Of a DNA stretch of 64,000 nucleotides, positions 1,855 to 53,700 are shown piece after piece (position 1 is the first letter of the stretch; each line of letters opens with the position of its first letter). Position numbers and translations under genes: made by a program. Under the pieces are notes generated by a model. It was not told the origin of the DNA. It did not search any database and was given only the letters and a program-made list of their open reading frames with translations. Origin of the DNA: Saccharothrix syringae (lineage in GTDB: Bacteria; Actinomycetota; Actinomycetes; Mycobacteriales; Pseudonocardiaceae); NCBI RefSeq assembly GCF_009498035.1, contig NZ_CP034550.1:434001-498000 (forward strand), read 5' to 3'.

Positions 1855-1917
1855 CGCGAGTCGAACCTCCAGAACCCCCGTGTCGAACCTCCGGGACCCC
1901 CGAGTTCGACATTCGGG
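1855..1917. repeat. Modular intergenic repeat array 1 (3 units)
   Basis: Three adjoining units of 24, 22 and 17 bp at 1855, 1879 and 1901. The first two share the core GTCGAACCTCC; the last reads CGAGTTCGACATTC. GTCGAAC and GTTCGAC can pair as a hairpin. It is the same family as the arrays at 21691, 28735, 40833 and 42403. It lies about 200 bp upstream of the SGNH gene. Confidence 0.85.
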
Positions 1918-2222
1918 TGGGGCCGGTGAGAGGGGCGGGGCGGCGCGGCGCGGCGCTGGGCTGCGGCGGGGCTGGGCCGGGGCTGGGCTGGGGTGCGAGG
2001 GGCCGGGCAGGGCTGGGCTGCGGCTGGGAGCGAGGGGCCAGGCGGGCCGGGGCTGAGGCTGGGCTGGGGCTGGGCTGGGGCTGGGCTGGGGTGCGAGGGG
2101 CCGGGCTGGGCCTGGAAGAGGGAGGAGCGGGAAGGGGTCGGCTGGGAAGGGGACCGAGAGGGGGGAGGGGTGGGCCGGGGCGGGGGAGGGCTGCCGCCGG
2201 GAGCCTCCCCCGCCCCGACGTC
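1918..2222. other. G-rich low-complexity intergenic stretch
   Basis: About 300 bp without a gene, made of degenerate GGGCTGGGCTGGGG-type repeats on the plus strand. One motif ending in GTGCGAGGGGCCGGGC occurs twice (about 1992 and 2091). It contains many runs of three or more G, so quadruplex formation is possible. It sits between array 1 and the 3' end of the minus-strand sugar kinase. No coding signal is seen. Confidence 0.7.
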
Positions 2223-21495: not shown

Positions 21496-21531
21496 TTCGT
21501 TCTTGCTTACCCGGCGGGTTGCGAGGGGCCT

Positions 21532-21657
21532 CGATTTGACATGGGGCCCTTACGAGCACCGGAGGCAGGCCGCAGCCGACAGGCACGGCGGGGAAAAGCG
21601 TCCCGCCGAGCCTGCCGGCTCCGACCAGCCTATGGCACTCGAACCCATGTCAAATCG
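21532..21657 (-). ncRNA. Strongly foldable element, candidate structured RNA or miniature inverted-repeat element
   Basis: Outer arms CGATTTGACATGGG (21532-21545) and CCCATGTCAAATCG (21644-21657) are perfect 14-bp inverted repeats. Inside, on the minus strand, CGAGTGCC can pair with GGTGCTCG using two G-U pairs, GGAG..GCAGGC can pair with GCCTGCCTCC, and a CGGCGGG/CCCGCCG hairpin forms the tip (21586-21608 on plus). The G-U pairs would be A-C mismatches in plus-strand RNA, favouring a minus-strand transcript, i.e. read-through from the SIS gene. No family recognised. Confidence 0.5.
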
Positions 21658-21690
21658 GGGCCCGCCGGCCCCACCGGACCCAGCGTCCTC

Positions 21691-21865
21691 CGGCGTGTCA
21701 TGCGTCCAGCACCGGCGTGTCCTCCACTCGGACACCGCGTGTCCTCCAGTCCGACACCGCGTGTCATGCGTTCAAGCCGGGCGTGTCATGCGTTCAAACC
21801 GCGCGAGTCGAACCTTCAGGACCCTCGTGTCGAACGTTCCGGCCCCCCGAGTTCTACGTTCAGGG
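21691..21865. repeat. Modular intergenic repeat array 2 (8 units)
   Basis: Eight back-to-back units of 20-24 bp at 21691, 21713, 21736, 21758, 21778, 21800, 21824 and 21846. Two have the TCCTCCA core, three the TCATGCGT core, two the GTCGAAC core, and the last is the CCCGAGTTCTACGTTC end unit. The array stops 6 bp before the stop codon of the minus-strand SIS gene. This is the longest example in the window. Confidence 0.9.
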
Positions 21866-21871
21866 TTGTTG

Positions 21872-28734: not shown

Positions 28735-28802
28735 CGCGCGTGTCCTCCACTCCGACACCGCGTGTCCTCCACCGGGGCACCGCGAGTCCGCCACCGGGGC
28801 AC
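28735..28802. repeat. Modular intergenic repeat array 3 (3 units)
   Basis: Units at 28735 (24 bp), 28759 and 28781 (22 bp each), all of the GTCCTCCAC / GGGGCAC subtype. The GAGTTCGAC end unit is missing, and the gene to the right is on the plus strand, unlike the other arrays. Confidence 0.85.
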
Positions 28803-28958
28803 CGGTCCGAGATCGTCGCGCCGACGCGGAGGCGGGTTGGTGACGGGCGTCACACGGAGGGGGCTCACCCCGGCGGCGGCTTCCGGCTACACCGGGGATG
28901 ACCGGAACTCCTCCGGTCTCACCCGCTCGGCCTAACAGCATTCACACGTCCGGGCAGT

Positions 28959-32096: not shown

Positions 32097-32144
32097 GGCC
32101 GCACGGTAACCGCCGCGCCGCCGCGTGCGCTACGGTGGAGGCGG

Positions 32145-32238
32145 TCCGCACGGGAGCCCGGAGCACACCGGGCTGAGAGGGAGCGTGGGTTCGCTCCGAC
32201 CGTCGAACCTGATCCGGGTCATGCCGGCGCAGGGAGCG
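32145..32238 (+). ncRNA. TPP riboswitch (THI element) before thiOSG
   Basis: Contains the conserved CTGAGAGGGA (32173-32182), AACCTGATC and GGGTCATGCCGGCG, ending in CAGGGAGCGCG just before the thiO start. Binding of thiamin pyrophosphate probably hides the GGGAG ribosome site and blocks translation. Confidence 0.95.
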
Positions 32239-32242
32239 CGAA

Positions 32243-33237
32243 GTGCCTTTGACAACGCGGGTGACCGTCCTCGGCGGCGGCGTCATCGGGCTGTCCGTCG
32301 CCTGGCGCGCGGCGTGCGCCGGGTTCGCCGTGCAGGTCGTCGACCACGCCTCGCCCCACGGCGGCTCCCGGGTCGCGGGCGGCATGCTCGCCCCCGTCAC
32401 CGAGGCGTGGCCGGGCGACGAGGAGGTGCTGCGCCTCGGCGTCGAATCGCTGGAGCTGTGGCCGGGGTTCGCCCGCGACCTGGGCGTGGACCTCAGCCCG
32501 GTCGGGACGCTCGCCGTGGCGGTCGACCGGGCCGACGCCGAGGTCCTGGACCGGCTGTGCGCGTACCTCGGCACGCTCGGCCGGTCCGCGACCCGGCTCA
32601 CCGGCCGCGAGCTGCGCGCCCTCGAACCCGGTCTCGGCCAGGTCCGGAGTGGACTGTCCGTGCCGGGCGACGTGGCCGTGGACAACCGCGCCCTGCTCGA
32701 CGCCCTGCGCGGCGCCGCCGGCGCCGCCGGCGTGCGGTTCACCACCGAACCCGGCGAAGCGGACGTGACCGTCATCGCGGCCGGCGCCTGGAGCCGCGAC
32801 CTGCACCCCGCGCTGCGCCACGTGATCCGACCCGTCAAGGGCGAGATCCTGCGGCTCGCCGCCCGCCCCGGCGCGCTGCCGCCGCCCCGCCACACCATCC
32901 GCGCGCACGTCTCCGGCCGACCCGTCTACCTCGTGCCCCGCCGCGACGGCTTCGTCCTCGGCGCCACCCAGTACGAGGCCGGGTTCGACGGCGACGTCAC
33001 CGTCGGCGGCGTGCGCGACCTGCTGCGCGACGCCGAGGTCGTCTGGCCCGGCATCGCCGAGTACGCGCTGGTCGAGGCCGCCGCCGGGTTCCGCGCGGGC
33101 AGCCCCGACAACGCGCCCGTCATCGGCTGGCTCGAACCCGGCGTGCTCGCCGCCACCGGCCACCACCGCAACGGCCTGCTGCTCGCACCGGTCACGGCGC
33201 GGCGCGTGGTCGACCTGCTGCGCGAGGGAGGAACCAG

Positions 33238-39884: not shown

Positions 39885-40181
39885 ATGGACGCCGCAGAGG
39901 CACTGGCGCCGGCGGAGGGGCCGGACGACGGGTTGAACGACCGGGAGCGGGAGATCCTGGCCTTCGAACGCCAGTGGTGGAAGTACGCGGGTGCCAAGGA
40001 ACAGGCCATCAGGGAGCTGTTCGACATGTCGGCCACGAGGTACTACCAACTGCTCAACGCGTTGATCGACAAGGAAGAGGCTTTGGCGGCCGACCCGATG
40101 CTGATCAAGAGACTGCGCAGGTCCCGGTCCGGCAGGCAGCGCGCCCGCCTGGCGAAGCGGCTGGGTGTCGAGCGCCGATGA
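39885..40181 (+). CDS. DUF3263 helix-turn-helix-like protein
   Basis: 98 residues from the ATG at 39885 (GAGGAG 7 bp upstream). Block REREILAFERQWWKYAGAKEQAIRELF spans most of the domain; Arg-rich C-terminus. Equivalent in position to Mycobacterium Rv0430. Possibly DNA binding; function unknown. Its stop overlaps the next start (ATGA). Confidence 0.85.
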   Translation: MDAAEALAPAEGPDDGLNDREREILAFERQWWKYAGAKEQAIRELFDMSATRYYQLLNALIDKEEALAADPMLIKRLRRSRSGRQRARLAKRLGVERR

Positions 40182-40831
40182 CGAACCCGGAACAGCCCGC
40201 GGGCACCGCCCACCCCGCCCGCGCCGCCGGCTACGTGCTGCTCGGGCTGGCCGCGGTCGCCCTGGTGATCGGCGTGATCAGCCTCTTCGGCGGCGGCTCG
40301 GACGACCAGCCGCCCGCCGCGCAGACGACCGCCACGTCCACGCCGGGGTCGGACACCCAGTCCTCCGCCCCGCCGTCGGAGACCACCCCGGCCACCTCCC
40401 AGGGCGAGCCGACCACCACCCAGCCGCCCCAGGCGCCCACGACCACCCCCGCGCCCACCGGCGCTCCCACCACCCCGGGCACCCCGGCCGGCCAGGGCAC
40501 CGCCGACACCCCGCCGCCCCCGGTGGCCCCCAAGCCGCCCGTGCGCGTCTACAACAACGGCACGATCGCCGGCCTGGCCGCCGACGCGTCGAACGACGTG
40601 CGCCGCGGCGGCTGGGAGGTCGTCGACACGGCCAACTACTCCCAGGGCACCATCCCCACCACCACGGTCTACTTCCGCCCCGGCACCGACGAGGAAGCCT
40701 CGGCCCGCCAACTGGCCCAGTTCCTGAACGCCCGGGTCGAACCCCGCTTCAACGGCATCCAAGCCGCCCACGCCGGCATCATCGTCATCGTCACCAACGA
40801 CTACAAGGGCCCCTCCGGCAAGGTCTCCTAA
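40178..40831 (+). CDS. LytR_C-domain membrane protein (VirR/Rv0431-like)
   Basis: 217 residues: one membrane helix (about 17-38), a Thr/Pro-rich linker (about 45-120), and an extracellular LytR_C domain with VRVYNNGTIAGLA. Mycobacterial Rv0431 (VirR), in the same place after def and DUF3263, affects cell envelope and vesicle release. A cell-wall scaffold role is inferred. Stop codon lies directly against repeat array 4. Confidence 0.85.
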   Translation: MTNPEQPAGTAHPARAAGYVLLGLAAVALVIGVISLFGGGSDDQPPAAQTTATSTPGSDTQSSAPPSETTPATSQGEPTTTQPPQAPTTTPAPTGAPTTPGTPAGQGTADTPPPPVAPKPPVRVYNNGTIAGLAADASNDVRRGGWEVVDTANYSQGTIPTTTVYFRPGTDEEASARQLAQFLNARVEPRFNGIQAAHAGIIVIVTNDYKGPSGKVS

Positions 40832-40832
40832 C

Positions 40833-40964
40833 CCCGCGTGTCATGCGCTCAGCCCGCGCGAGTCATGCGTTCAAGTCGCGCGAGTCATGCGTTCAAGTCG
40901 CGCGAGTCGAACGCTCAGACCCCTCGTGTCGAACCTTCAGGACCCCCGAGTTCGACGTTCGACC
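40833..40964. repeat. Modular intergenic repeat array 4 (6 units)
   Basis: Units at 40833, 40854, 40877, 40899, 40922 and 40945: three of the TCATGCG core, two of the GTCGAAC core, and the CCCGAGTTCGACGTTC end unit. It fills almost the whole gap between convergent genes, starting 1 bp after one stop codon and ending 18 bp before the other. Confidence 0.92.
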
Positions 40965-40982
40965 CGCTCCGGCCCGTTCCGG

Positions 40983-42350
40983 TCAGCCGGCGAGCACGGC
41001 CCACCCGCCGGCGTCGAGGTGGGCCCGCGCACCCGGCGTCCCGGGCGCGTCGAGCCGCGCCCGCCCGGCCAGCACGCCGCTCGCCCCGGGCACCCGCGCG
41101 CCGACCGGCCCGCCGGCGGTCGACAGCACCGCGACCAGGCGTTGCCCCTCCGCCGCCGAGGCGTAGGAGAGGAACTCGTTCGACACGTCCAGCACGCTCG
41201 TCCGCGCCGCGTGCAGCCACGGGTGCCGGCGCCGCAGCCCCAGCAGCTCCTGGTGCAGGTGGAACACCGGCAACCCGATCGGTGACAGTTCGGCGGGCGT
41301 GGCCGGGAACGGCGGCCTGACCTCGTCGTCACCGCCCGCCCGGTCCTCCTTGACCCCGCGGAAGCCGTGCTCGTCGCCCGCGTAGACCGCCGGGGTGCCG
41401 CCGGTGGTGGCCAGCACGACCAGGGCGTGGGCCACGTGCCCGGGGTCGGCCAGGCGGCTCGCGATGCGCGTGACGTCGTGGTTGCCCAGGAACGTGTACG
41501 GGACGAAGCGCTCCAGGAAGCCGTCGTGCCGGCGCAGCGCGTGCGCCAGCTCGTGGAAGTTCCGGTCGTTGAGCGAACTCCACACGGCCTTCCACAGCTC
41601 GTACTGCGTGACCGCGTCGAGACCGCCCTCGGTGACGAACGCGGTGTAGTCGCCGTGGATGACCTCACCCATCAGGTACGCGTCCGGGTGACGGGCGCGT
41701 ACGCGCTCGGTGACCTGCGCCCAGAACGTCGTCGGCACGGCGTAGGCGGCGTCGAGGCGCCACCCCGACGCGCCCCGGTCGAGCCAGTGGTTCATCACGT
41801 CGACCACGTGGTCGACCACGGCCGGGCACGAGTGGTCGAGCGCCACGAGGTGGTGGTGGCCCTCGAAGTCGTCGTACCCGGGCTCGGTGCCGGGCGTCCA
41901 CGGGCCGTCGGGCCAGCGCAGGCGGAACCACGGCGCGGTCGCCGCCGAAGGCCCCTGCTCCAGCACCGCCCGGAACGCCGGGTGACCCCGTCCGACGTGG
42001 TTGAACACCCCGTCGAGCAGGACGCGCAGGCCACGCGCCGAGGCGGCGGCGACCAGCGCGTCGAAGTCGCCTTCGTCACCCAGTCGGGGGTCGATGCGGT
42101 AGTGGTCGGTGGTGTCGTAGCCGTGGGTGCCGGAGGCGAAGACCGGGCCGAGCGCCAGGCCGGACGCGCCCAGCTCCAGGGCGTGGTCCAGCCAGGCGTG
42201 CAGGTGCCCCAGGCGGTGGGTGACGGGGGTGTCGCCGGTGCTCCGGGGTTCGGCGCCGGTGAAGCCGAGCGGGTAGACGTGCCACCAGATGGCGTGCCGG
42301 ACCCAGGCCGGGCCGCTCGTGAACACCCGTTCCGCCGCGTCGCTCTTCAC
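40983..42350 (-). CDS. Glycoside hydrolase family 13 (alpha-amylase type)
   Basis: 455 residues from the GTG at 42350. Barrel motifs: DGVFNHVG, nucleophile Asp200 (GWRLDAAY), acid Glu229 (LMGEVIHG), Asp292 (FLGNHDVTR). No signal peptide, so a cytosolic alpha-glucosidase/amylase-like enzyme; substrate unclear. An upstream in-frame start would read through repeat array 5 and is rejected. In mycobacteria sodC stands near this place. Confidence 0.88.
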   Translation of the reverse strand: MKSDAAERVFTSGPAWVRHAIWWHVYPLGFTGAEPRSTGDTPVTHRLGHLHAWLDHALELGASGLALGPVFASGTHGYDTTDHYRIDPRLGDEGDFDALVAAASARGLRVLLDGVFNHVGRGHPAFRAVLEQGPSAATAPWFRLRWPDGPWTPGTEPGYDDFEGHHHLVALDHSCPAVVDHVVDVMNHWLDRGASGWRLDAAYAVPTTFWAQVTERVRARHPDAYLMGEVIHGDYTAFVTEGGLDAVTQYELWKAVWSSLNDRNFHELAHALRRHDGFLERFVPYTFLGNHDVTRIASRLADPGHVAHALVVLATTGGTPAVYAGDEHGFRGVKEDRAGGDDEVRPPFPATPAELSPIGLPVFHLHQELLGLRRRHPWLHAARTSVLDVSNEFLSYASAAEGQRLVAVLSTAGGPVGARVPGASGVLAGRARLDAPGTPGARAHLDAGGWAVLAG

Positions 42351-42402: not shown

Positions 42403-42488
42403 CGCGTGTCCTCCACTGCGGCACCGCGTGTCGTCCACTCGGGCAGGGCGTGTCGTCCACTCCCGTACCCCGAATTCGCCGTTCGGAG
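42403..42488. repeat. Modular intergenic repeat array 5 (4 units)
   Basis: Units at exactly 22-bp steps: 42403, 42425 and 42447 (core GTC[C/G]TCCACT), then the end unit CCCGAATTCGCCGTTCGG at 42469. It ends 16 bp before the stop codon of the AAA ATPase gene. Confidence 0.92.
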
Positions 42489-42504
42489 CCGGCGGGCGCG
42501 GAAT

Positions 42505-44907
42505 TCAGCCGTTGCGGGACTCCGCGTAGGCGGCGAGGGAGGCGAGCTGCACCGGGTCCAGCGACGGCCGCACCGCGGTCCGGGCGGCGGCCAGGTGGGC
42601 GCCCGTCACCTCGGTCGCCGACAGCGACTCGCGCATCGCGGTCAACGCGGCCTCCCGGATCAGCGCCGCGCAGTCGGCCGCCGAGTACCCGTCCAGCTCC
42701 TCGGCCAGCACCGCCAGGTCCACGTCCCCGGCCAGCGGCGTGTTCCGCGACGACGCCCGCAGGATCTCGGCCCGCGCCCCGGCGTCCGGCGGCGGCACGT
42801 ACACCAGCCGCTCCAGCCGGCCCGGCCGCAGCAACGCCGGGTCCACCAGCTCGGGCCGGTTGGTGGCACCCAGCACGATCACGTCCCGCAGCGGCTCGAC
42901 CCCGTCCAACTCGGTCAGCAGCGCCGCGACCACCCGGTCCGACACGCCCGAGTCCGACGACTGCCCGCGCCGCGGCGCCAGCGCGTCCACCTCGTCCAGG
43001 AACACCAGCGCCGGCGCCGCCTCGGCCGCCCGCCGGAACAGCTCCCGCACCGCGCGCTCCGACTCGCCGACGAACTTGTCCATCAGCTCGGCGCCCTTGA
43101 CCGACAGCACGTTCAACCGCCCGCTGCCCGCCAGCGCGCGCACCAGGAACGTCTTCCCGCACCCCGGCGGCCCGTACAGCAGCAGCCCGCGCGGCGGCGC
43201 GACCCCGAGACGCGCGAACGAGTCCGGGTACTGCAACGGCCACAGCGCGGCCTCGGTCAACGCCTGCTTGACCTCGACCATGTCACCGACGTCGTCCAGC
43301 GTGAGACCGCCGGTCCGCAGGGTGTCCGAAGTGGACATCGAGATCGGGCGGACCGTCTCCAGCGCGCCCACCAGGTCGCCCTGCGCCACCCGGGGCTCCG
43401 CGACGTCGCGCTGCCGCAGCACCGCGCGGACCGCCGCCTCCCGGCGCAACGCCACCAGGTCCGCCGCCACGAACCCCGGCGTGCGGTCGGCGACCACCCC
43501 GAAGTCCACGTCGGACTCGACCGGCACGTCCCGCAGCAGCACCCGCAGCAGCTCCGTCCGCGTCGCCCGGTCGGGCAGCGGCAGCACCAGCTCGCGGTCC
43601 ACCAGCTCCGGCGCGCGCAACCGCGGGTCCACGGCCTCGGGGTGCGCGCTCGTGACCACCAGCACGACCCCGTCCGGCCGCCCGCGCAACGCGTCGAGCA
43701 CCACCGTCGCCACCGGCGGCGGCGTGGCGGCCGGCAGCAGCGCCTCGACGTCGGTCAGCAGCAGCACCGCCGGCGCCTGCGCGCGTGCCGCGGCCAGGGC
43801 GTCCGCGAGCCGCTGCGCGGTCGCGTTGGCCTCCAGGACCGCGATGCCCGGCGCCGCGACCTCGACGACCGCCACCTCGGCCGCGTGCGCGACGGCCCGC
43901 ACGAACGTGGTCTTGCCGACCCCTTCCGGGCCGCTGACCTGCACCGCGAGCCGGGGCGTCGCGCCGAGCCTGGCCAGCAGCTCCGGGTGGCTGAACGTCA
44001 GGTCGAGCCATTCGGCGAGCCGCTTGGCGGCGTCCTGCTGCCCCACGAGGTCCGCGACCGGCACGGGCGCCGCGGCCGCCGTGACCGCACCGGCGCCCGC
44101 CACGCCGGTGCCCGTCGAGCCTGGACCGGTGCCCGAAATGTTCCCGAAGTCTGAAATACCCTTTATGCCCGAAATTTCACCCGAGCCGGAAATCCCGCCC
44201 ACCCGGCCCGCGCCGGCTGAACCCGCGCCCGAACCTGCCCCTGCGCCCAGGCCGACCCCAGCCGCCGATCCCGCGCCCGACCCGGCCCCCGCCGAGCCAC
44301 CCGCCGCACCCGACCCGCCCCGGCCGAACCCGACGCCGGCCGCGTCACCCGTGCTCGCCCCGTCGCGCCACCCCACGACCGTCGACGGCTGCACCGCCAC
44401 CGGCACCCCCGCGGGGTCGGCGGCGGTGATGGTCAGCAGCTCGTTCGTCCACGTCATCCCGATCGCGTTCGCCAGCTTGCGCCTGGTCGCGCTCAGGTCC
44501 GCCCCCGGCGGCGGGGCCAGGTCCTGCGGCAGCAGCGACACCGCGTCGCCCACCGTCAGCACCTTGCCGGTCAGCGCCATGCGCAGGGTCTCGGGCGTGA
44601 GCGACGTGCTCGCCAGCCGCGACCCGGCCACCACCACCCGCCGGGCGGCGGCGACCTCCACCGGGGCCACCACGACCTCGCTGCCCTCGACGACGCCGAG
44701 GTTCGACAGGGTCACGTCGTCCAGCAGCACCACGCCGGGCGGGCCGTCGCCGGCGGCGGCCAGGGCCGCGCTCACCCGCGCGCCCGTCAGGCGCACCGCG
44801 TCCCAGGCCCGCAGGCCCAGCGCGTCCAGCACCTCCGGGTGCAGCCGCACCACGCCGCGGCGGGTGTCGAGGGCCGAGGGCGACAGGCGGGCCGTCAGCG
44901 TGATCAC
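42505..44907 (-). CDS. Two-domain AAA ATPase (Cdc48/VCP-like)
   Basis: 800 residues: N-terminal Cdc48-N-like double-psi region (about 1-180), a Gly/Ala/Ser-rich linker (about 185-275), D1 with Walker A GPEGVGKT (Lys332), and D2 with GPPGCGKT (Lys585) and Walker B FLDEVDAL. In D1 the Walker B reads LLLTDVEAL, so the hydrolytic Glu after Asp is not in its usual place and D1 may bind but not split ATP. It probably unfolds or remodels proteins. Same position as Mycobacterium Rv0435c. Confidence 0.9.
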   Translation of the reverse strand: MITLTARLSPSALDTRRGVVRLHPEVLDALGLRAWDAVRLTGARVSAALAAAGDGPPGVVLLDDVTLSNLGVVEGSEVVVAPVEVAAARRVVVAGSRLASTSLTPETLRMALTGKVLTVGDAVSLLPQDLAPPPGADLSATRRKLANAIGMTWTNELLTITAADPAGVPVAVQPSTVVGWRDGASTGDAAGVGFGRGGSGAAGGSAGAGSGAGSAAGVGLGAGAGSGAGSAGAGRVGGISGSGEISGIKGISDFGNISGTGPGSTGTGVAGAGAVTAAAAPVPVADLVGQQDAAKRLAEWLDLTFSHPELLARLGATPRLAVQVSGPEGVGKTTFVRAVAHAAEVAVVEVAAPGIAVLEANATAQRLADALAAARAQAPAVLLLTDVEALLPAATPPPVATVVLDALRGRPDGVVLVVTSAHPEAVDPRLRAPELVDRELVLPLPDRATRTELLRVLLRDVPVESDVDFGVVADRTPGFVAADLVALRREAAVRAVLRQRDVAEPRVAQGDLVGALETVRPISMSTSDTLRTGGLTLDDVGDMVEVKQALTEAALWPLQYPDSFARLGVAPPRGLLLYGPPGCGKTFLVRALAGSGRLNVLSVKGAELMDKFVGESERAVRELFRRAAEAAPALVFLDEVDALAPRRGQSSDSGVSDRVVAALLTELDGVEPLRDVIVLGATNRPELVDPALLRPGRLERLVYVPPPDAGARAEILRASSRNTPLAGDVDLAVLAEELDGYSAADCAALIREAALTAMRESLSATEVTGAHLAAARTAVRPSLDPVQLASLAAYAESRNG

Positions 44908-44941: not shown

Positions 44942-45026
44942 GTGCGGGTGGGCGGGGGAGTGCGGGTGGGCGGGGGAGTGCGGAGGGGCGGGGGAGTGCG
45001 GGTGGGCGGAGGGGTGCGGGACGGCG
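44942..45026. repeat. Tandem 18-bp G-rich repeat upstream of AAA ATPase
   Basis: Four full units starting at 44942, 44960, 44978 and 44996 plus a partial fifth. Unit: GTGCGGGTGGGCGGGGGA. The first two are identical. Runs of G make a quadruplex possible on the template strand of the ATPase gene. Confidence 0.88.
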
Positions 45027-45050
45027 CGGGGGCTGGTCGGCGGTTCCTTC

Positions 45051-52681: not shown

Positions 52682-52689
52682 CGACGCCC

Positions 52690-53700
52690 GAACCACCCGG
52701 CCTGCCCGCCTACTTCGACCACCCGCCCGCACCGCCACCCCGACCGCCTACCCCGACCGCCAGCCCCACCTGCCCGGCCGACCCTCAGCCCCAACTACCC
52801 GGCCCGACGACCTGGCCCGACTGCCAGCCCCAACCACCTGCTCCGGCTGTTCCACTCCGACCACCTGCCCCGGCTGCCCACCCCAATTGCCTACCCCGAC
52901 TGCATGTCCGACTGCCCGCCTGAGCCGGCCCAACCACCCGCCTCGACCGCCTGCCCCTGGCCGCCCACTTCGGCCAACCTGCCCGGCGACCCGCCGTGGC
53001 CACTCGCCCGGCCTGCCTCGCCTGGCCTGGATCGCCCGGCCTGCCTCGCTTAGCCTGGATCGGTCGGCCGGCCTGCCTCACCAGCTTGCGACCGGCCGCT
53101 GCGACTGGCCGCTGCCGAGACCGGTTGCTGCGACCGGCCGCCATTGCGGCTGGTGGCTGTCGCTGCGATCGGGCCTGCCGCTGCGATCGGTCCGTCCCGC
53201 TTGGCCTGGCTCGTCTGGCCCTGGTGGTCCCCGTTCGGCTCCTGTCGGCCGGCCCTCGCGTAGCTGTTGGCCCGTCCGGCTTTCTCGTCCGGCTGGGGAT
53301 TTTCGGTTGGGTTTTCCGGCCGGTGGTGGCGGTCTTGTCGGCCGCGGGTCGTTTTTTGTGGGCTTGTTGGGTGCGGGTGTGTCAATGGTGGTCCGTGGTC
53401 GTTGTGCGACTGGGTGGGCCGCGCTTGCATTTCGGGCCTTCGTCGCTGGATTGGCGGGCAATTCGCGGCGGGTGCTTGGGTGTGTCTTGGCGTTGGGGTT
53501 GTCTCGGGGTGAGTGCCCGGTTGTGCGAGGTCATCGGCGGGTTTCTCGGTCGCTGCGCCTGGCCGCGGGCAATTGCGGTGATCGCGGCGCTCTGGTTGTG
53601 GTCTTCGGGTTCGCTGTTGCCTTGCCCGGTTTTTGGTGGGTGGCGCGGGATGGTGTGGGATTTTTGCTTCATTCGGGACTGGGGGCGGCGGTGTTGTTGA
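52690..53700. other. Low-complexity, probably non-coding region with strand-composition switch
   Basis: About 1 kb. The first half (to ~53280) is pyrimidine-rich on plus with degenerate repeats, including a 28-bp near-tandem word starting CCCGGCCTGCCTCGC at 53007 and 53035. The second half is G/T-rich. Open frames exist on both strands (e.g. 52887-53708 plus) but lack codon-position bias, ribosome sites or any family similarity. No RNA gene recognised. Confidence 0.6.

Follow-up and report, generated by a model that had tools for sequence, protein, structure and literature searches.

In a window of 64 kb, which is the whole stretch of DNA analysed here and part of a Saccharothrix syringae chromosome of 10,929,570 bases, one array of repeated units (array 4, Table 1) fills the space that two convergent genes leave between their stop codons, at 40831 on the plus strand and 40983 on the minus strand. 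What kind of element occupies the space between two gene ends in this way? A sequence-only reading of the window had placed array 4 in a family of five modular intergenic arrays, built of 20-24-bp units without spacers in a fixed order, and had suggested repeated binding of a protein or a processed RNA. All five arrays were found in the window, and the units are indeed free of spacers, but they are exactly 22 bp long when counted from their GWGT tag. No description of such a family was recognised in the open-licence PMC literature that was searched. We put at about even the chance that the arrays are cooperative binding platforms of a putative sequence-specific DNA-binding protein at gene 3′ ends, where they would probably serve as a transcription boundary or terminator accessory.

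Table 1. Features of the window (window coordinates; A to D are unit classes)
Feature	Position	Strand	Description
Array 1	1858..1923	+	three units, C C D
133-bp imperfect hairpin element, MITE-like	21528..21660	+	terminal inverted repeat CGATTTGACATGGG/CCCATGTCAAATCG
Array 2	21695..21870	+	eight units, B A A B B C C D
Array 3	28740..28805	+	three units, A A A
LytR_C-domain gene	40178..40831	+	stop 6 bp upstream of array 4
Array 4 (main finding)	40838..40969	+	six 22-bp units, B B B C C D
Alpha-amylase-domain gene	40983..42350	-	flanked by arrays 4 and 5
Array 5	42406..42493	+	three A units and a degenerate closing unit (GAATTCGCCGTTCG)
AAA (CDC48-like) ATPase gene	42505..44907	-	stop 11 bp from array 5

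Array 2 stops 1 bp short of the stop codon of a convergent minus-strand SIS-domain gene, and array 5, flanked by two minus-strand genes, lies 11 bp from the stop of the ATPase gene. Array 3 is flanked by two plus-strand genes, with the upstream stop 285 bp before it. Array 1 is flanked by two minus-strand genes, the nearest called genes are 202 and 299 bp away, and there is no stop nearby. None of the arrays has an Rfam match at gathering score; the sole match of the window is a TPP riboswitch (RF00059, 64 bits) at 32140-32252. Other tandem repeats, at 44942-45032 and 52686-53078 with periods of 18/36 bp and 14/28 bp, are by eye unrelated to the 22-bp family.

Spacing and array counts were taken from 1.258 Mb of the chromosome, window included, with genes called by a home-made codon-usage caller. 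Three GWGT[CT] tags in a row are found 159 times at exactly 22 bp and zero or one time at each other spacing from 16 to 29 bp, and none of the 159 rows falls within the 100 kb sampled at 5.40-5.50 Mb. When units were found by profile and spacing was ignored, 232 of 234 neighbours were exactly 22 bp apart; in five relatives, 118 of 121 neighbour distances are 22 bp and the other three are 44 bp. The unit follows one plan: G-W-G-T-C, a four-base core at positions 6-9, N-Y-Y-C, mostly A-G, and a C-rich tail. The cores in this genome are CTCC (class A), ATGC (B) and GAAC (C), and the closing unit (D) has GAGTT. The 304 units of 69 arrays comprise 70 of class A (GTGTCCTCCACTC..), 107 of class B (GTGTCATGCGTTCA..), 75 of class C (G[AT]GTCGAACCTTCAGG..), 47 of class D (GAGTTCNACGTTC) and five in none of these. 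A constant period with changing cores, as had been proposed, is therefore what the units have, with spacing exact while cores vary. The proposed order A-B-C-D holds as a strong tendency but not as a rule. C is followed by D 36 times in the 69 rows, B by C 11 times, A by C six times and A by B three times, and A and B never come after C, nor C after D; but D is followed by A seven times and by B once, B is followed by A once, and the array at 21695 breaks the order.

Units with the same core are only about 76-79% alike, with identities in this genome of 0.788 within an arm, 0.766 between facing arms and 0.763 between loci. Recent tandem duplication, as in a VNTR or satellite, was rejected because units within a locus are no more alike than units of different loci (0.766 vs 0.763). 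That spacing is kept so exactly despite this divergence also argues against a reading which we consider unlikely, namely that the arrays are interspersed repeats without host function, spread by BIME-like copying between spacers and tolerated at gene ends, with facing pairs as by-products of copying or palindrome correction.

Among the strongest couplings between positions, no pair points to a hairpin inside the unit. This speaks against action at the RNA level, in which units transcribed in 3′ UTRs would act together with a central hairpin in termination or in protection of the mRNA end; we think such action quite unlikely. Among 203 units of five relatives, positions 6 and 7 show almost only base-pair flips (C/G 52/48, T/A 50/49) and rarely transitions, as if recognition took place through the minor groove or irrespective of strand sense. 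GTGTC is the reverse complement of GACAC, which we take to be the WhiA motif, and the unit presumably also resembles LexA-box halves and LAGLIDADG 22-bp sites.

The family is genome-wide. With two mismatches allowed, the closing unit has 89 + 95 matches and its reversed control 1 + 3. This search, together with the 159 three-tag rows, rules out a local accident, so that the absence of further arrays, named beforehand as a refutation of the sequence-only reading, did not come about. At a PWM threshold of 14 the profile yields 63 clusters. All 44 clusters with at least two units lie between genes, in keeping with the claim that the arrays are intergenic; the other 19 are single matches within genes and are taken as chance (8 matches in the reversed control). 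The spacers of 42 of the 44 contain a gene 3′ end, with 19 clusters for 219 convergent spacers, 23 for 705 tandem and two for 216 divergent ones (chi-square p 6e-5), and the two divergent cases may be gene-calling errors. In the 69 array rows, two of which read other arrays in reverse phase (9277255 and 9391047), the stop codon of an inward-read gene is found within 40 bp at the start of 24, at the end of 19 and at either in 40. The remaining 29 arms, with neither end within 40 bp of a stop, count against a protein array at gene ends.

The arrays are also unevenly distributed along the chromosome. dnaA stands at the contig start (ORF 45-1724, Pfam Bac_DnaA, E 8e-77). The list of closing units in this genome is complete for up to one mismatch, and the part of the chromosome around dnaA, 54% of the whole, has 93 of its 98 entries; the five others fall in the 3-8 Mb stretch (46%), where two of them adjoin copies of the 133-bp hairpin element. 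Such concentration is a further point against repeats without host function.

Many arms are paired. In this genome 30 of 67 arms form 15 inward-facing pairs, 12 form six outward-facing pairs and 25 are single, and five relatives add 24 inward and three outward pairs. Inward pairs outnumber outward ones by 39 to 9 overall, and forward units are much commoner than reverse ones after each stop. This asymmetry would suit an RNA-level element, but some pairs do face outward, and some units lie antisense to the gene upstream. A place at 3′ ends and paired opposite orientation are, in two REP/BIME studies, typical of those repeats (PMC3733652; PMC2817692), which favours copying without host function. 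Facing arms of this genome match in core type above permuted arms (0/2000 permutations). In the five relatives the match is not significant (1781, 1716, 186, 187 and 89 of 2000 permutations), and a significant match in one genome only weighs against the protein-array reading.

The distance between the arms of an inward pair was measured from C13, which is conserved, in the closing end of one arm to C13 in that of the other. Across 63 such pairs, distances gather at 1, 9-10, 19-24, 30-33, 42-45, 52-57 and 75-76. The 15 pairs of this genome give R 0.79 at 11 bp, a value reached by 0/5000 jittered sets, and R 0.09 at 22 bp; with each sequence cluster represented once, the 27 distances give R 0.80 at 10.7 bp and 0.20 at 22 bp. 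With these low values at 22 bp, the length of the unit was rejected as the cause of the phasing. The phasing remains in 16 clusters without the commonest class (19-22), with 0/20000 at 10.8 bp and 4/4000 when the period is free between 10 and 11.5. Small subsets treated in this way are weak (own genome 99/4000, relatives 198/4000, and 665/4000 in G227, a genome of another genus described below), and the best period of the relatives over 7-26 is then 14.85; this weakness counts against the protein-array reading. A replication at nine further sites of this genome, taken from the closing-unit list and lying outside the sampled stretches, gave distances of 10, 20, 21, 21, 22, 31, 31, 32 and 64, with R 0.94 at 10.8 bp (0/20000). 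The pooled replication set also has R 0.48 at 22 bp (717/20000), because one distance class dominates. Thus the centre between facing arms changes in length with a period of 10.7-11 bp, not 22, so its steps are single helical turns and not whole units. A protein complex joining both arms on one face of the DNA explains this phasing. We see no reason why RNA or simple copying should be its source; steps of single turns are evidence against repeats without function, and an RNA-level role leaves both the helical period and the exact 22-bp unit spacing unexplained.

The centres themselves usually fold. Among 56-nt folds, the most stable one is no more than 15 nt away from the centre for 34 of the 39 inward pairs and for eight of the nine outward ones, and beside trpS several array-less species have, by eye, a plain GC hairpin where bearers of the family have facing closing units. 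Both observations would suit an RNA-level element, but any inverted pair automatically makes a central hairpin, and the hairpins of convergent spacers are as stable without arrays (median -36.2 kcal/mol, n = 113) as with them (-36.4, n = 15). Hence arrays are not required for a hairpin to be present, and they lie around it.

Another hairpin, the MITE-like 133-bp element (z -8.5 vs shuffles), lies 34 bp upstream of array 2 and makes a composite with it. The listed copies are 84-100% identical, and those in this genome include 14317, 273369, 332457, 558596, 9262357 and 9282957, among others. The element stands upstream of seven arrays in the sampled stretches of this genome. As for MITE features, arrays alone share no flanks, and it is the composite that recurs at seven sites. 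A composite copied to at least seven sites favours repeats without host function, as does the recurrence of near-identical centres in genome G202. Within the genus, 12 of the 14 array-bearing genomes have the element, and the other 11 genomes all lack it. It was rejected as the carrier of the arrays, since the eight copies viewed whole in relatives are mostly solitary, recurring in one spacer, although the copy at locus L154 adjoins an array; for this reason it is treated as a separate element.

We call a genome a bearer if it has at least 19 closing units at no more than one mismatch. Among the matches listed, 14 of 25 genus genomes, including that of the window, are bearers with 19-149 copies, and the other 11 have 0-5. 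The family occurs in 13 of 24 congeners with different unit cores, and the B tag is private, with 65 copies in this genome, none in 10 congeners and one copy in each of five of the other 189 of 200 genomes. Samples of 200 kb from each of five bearers contain arrays that keep strictly to 22 bp, each bearer with a core mixture of its own (GAAC; CTAC and GAAC; CTAC, CAAC and GTAC; CAAC and GAAC; GTAC and CAAC), and no 22-bp array was found in the non-bearer G184. In a two-gene tree a split with local support of 0.98 has the 11 non-bearers on one side, so that the 14 bearers are one clade under midpoint rooting. With 11 of 25 congeners lacking it, the family cannot be essential, and this counts against the protein-array reading.

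Two spacers were followed across the genus. Between a metB-like gene and its convergent neighbour, the same site is occupied by arrays in 10 of the 13 other bearers, in most cases with a GC hairpin in their midst; only a remnant is present in G211, and G203 and G143 have no array. In the spacer beside trpS, all 13 other bearers have facing arrays. The 11 non-bearers showed none there; in four of them, where the left gene was unaligned, the view covered 350 bp beside trpS. The metB-side spacer of non-bearer G213 (locus L116) has three degenerate 22-bp units resembling the B type of the window genome (GAGTCATGTGTTCGGACACC..). The same spacers in array-less G212 and G200 (L115, L111, L139) hold other large inverted repeats, perhaps other mobile hairpin elements.

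Among the conserved convergent spacers of a 178-kb stretch, compared with five bearers, arrays are present in both genomes in nine cases, in ours only in seven, in the relative only in eight and in neither in 35. Such gains and losses of sites are in favour of repeats without host function. No array was found in 101 comparisons of divergent spacers with six congeners. Over 55 species pairs, unit identity is 0.674 at the orthologous site and 0.675 at another site. Arrays at orthologous spacers and these equal identities show that the site is inherited, with gains and losses, and that the letters of the units are replaced and keep no memory of their site. Helical phasing and the persistence of sites under replacement of units make repeated protein binding the best-fitting of the readings first offered. 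The interpretation made from sequence alone otherwise keeps its family, its intergenic place, its period and its separation from CRISPR, and loses its strict order.

Array 4 and its neighbour array 5 bring in another possibility, that arrays are recombination sites, offering homology for swapping or inserting genes between spacers. The alpha-amylase gene between them is missing at the corresponding place of all seven Saccharothrix loci that were compared, where the ATPase gene comes directly after the LytR_C gene (C-terminal codons matched by eye). Since its two neighbours are adjacent there, the gene either arrived here or was lost in the relatives. We regard a recombination role as highly improbable, for this is a single case, the two flanking arrays share no full unit type beyond the general form, and most orthologous array sites have no gene insertion. 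No arrays were found around the 40.8-kb locus in seven named relatives (L069-L075).

A version with another period exists outside the genus. Among the matches listed for other genera of the family sample, G227 (genus g16) has 34 exact closing units and the rest of 272 genomes have at most two. Its arrays consist of a related unit, for example CGAACCCCACGTTCAGGCACC, spaced at 21 bp. Neighbours no more than 66 bp apart give 310 distances, 224 of them 21, 55 of them 42 and 13 of them 63 bp, some loci overlapping. At 30 loci, of which 17 are convergent, nine tandem, one divergent and three in no class, 0 of 294 units lie in called genes. Eight facing distances, with one value occurring twice, give R 0.79 at 10.5 bp and R 0.29 at 11. 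Within the family sample the 21-bp unit type is nearly confined to this genome.

Site conservation, exact unit spacing and helical phasing are all computed, and they suggest how a protein array could work. A protein would cover one unit per two helical turns, which is 22 bp in Saccharothrix and 21 bp in the relative. Units keep their exact spacing while letters vary, and arms often face each other across a short centre that changes in one-turn steps, so that they present the same face of the helix. The protein would fill neighbouring units cooperatively, and the two arms would touch. The complex may then form a boundary at the gene end against read-through and supercoiling, stopping or buffering RNA polymerase and the positive supercoils between convergent genes, and may work together with the hairpin that is usually at the centre. 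Species-specific cores could have arisen by co-evolution of the protein and its sites. In E. coli, according to PMC8360656, positive supercoils do gather between convergent genes, and REP repeats at gene ends are described as gyrase targets in PMC3733652. More tentatively, and with less than even confidence, we propose gene-end boundary arrays as a new kind of element, in which a protein filament on 22-bp (elsewhere 21-bp) units would bridge facing arms on one helix face. Its recognition code would be rewritten in each species while the sites are kept, as one would expect if the sites co-evolve with a rapidly evolving DNA-binding protein, or with a few such proteins that each serve one core type.

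If this is true, bacteria use phased protein arrays as gene-end boundaries, a role for which the leading candidates in bacteria have until now been REP/BIME repeats bound by gyrase. Sites that stay while their letters are replaced would then be a natural record of a DNA-binding code changing genome-wide. Because array-bearing and array-less sister species share gene pairs, the handling of convergent transcription in GC-rich actinobacteria becomes testable.

Several known systems share features with the arrays. They are not CRISPR, as already noted from the sequence: there are no spacers between units and the units have diverged, instead of identical repeats with unique spacers. With phased protein-binding arrays they have in common a helical register kept across changing distances, weak in small subsets. 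Intrinsic bidirectional terminators have the same place between convergent genes and a central hairpin of similar stability, whereas the arrays flank the hairpin by up to about 130 bp on each side, and its strength is the same with and without them. Plasmid iterons are protein-bound direct repeats of about two helical turns, but they lie at one replication origin and the arrays are dispersed over the chromosome at gene ends. MIRU are tandem repeats at many intergenic places of an actinobacterium, with units of about 40-100 bp that are nearly identical within a locus; the units described here have 22 bp, are about 76-79% alike and show no local homogenisation. BOX elements of Streptococcus pneumoniae are modular and intergenic, with a preferred module order, a variable number of inner modules and modules of about 45-60 bp. 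The arrays differ from them in their 22-bp units, facing arms and helical phasing, and resemble them as modular intergenic elements with a preferred order.

A further comparison is with the REP/BIME repeats of enterobacteria, Pseudomonas and Stenotrophomonas. Like those repeats, the arrays are intergenic, lie mostly in convergent or unidirectional spacers, form pairs of opposite orientation, have species-specific sequences and reach hundreds of units per genome (PMC3733652; PMC2817692). In contrast, the REP/BIME unit is an imperfect palindrome of 20-40 bp, and the 22-bp unit is an asymmetric direct repeat (GWGTC-NNNC-N-YYC-A-G..) arranged head-to-tail without spacers at exact two-turn spacing, so that palindromes arise only between facing arms. 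The GTAG or CGTC end tag given for REP in PMC3733652 is absent from the unit consensus, which starts with GWGTC. RAYT (PF01797) has no match in the window genome and occurs in five of 25 congeners, of which three are among the 14 bearers and two among the 11 others. With no such transposase at home and none correlated with bearers, a RAYT-driven REP system was rejected, and the same result counts against functionless copying. Membership of REP/BIME fails on unit palindromy, end tag and RAYT, while the place at gene 3′ ends and the pairing are shared, and the arrays are accordingly filed under the broad kind of intergenic repeat families at gene ends.
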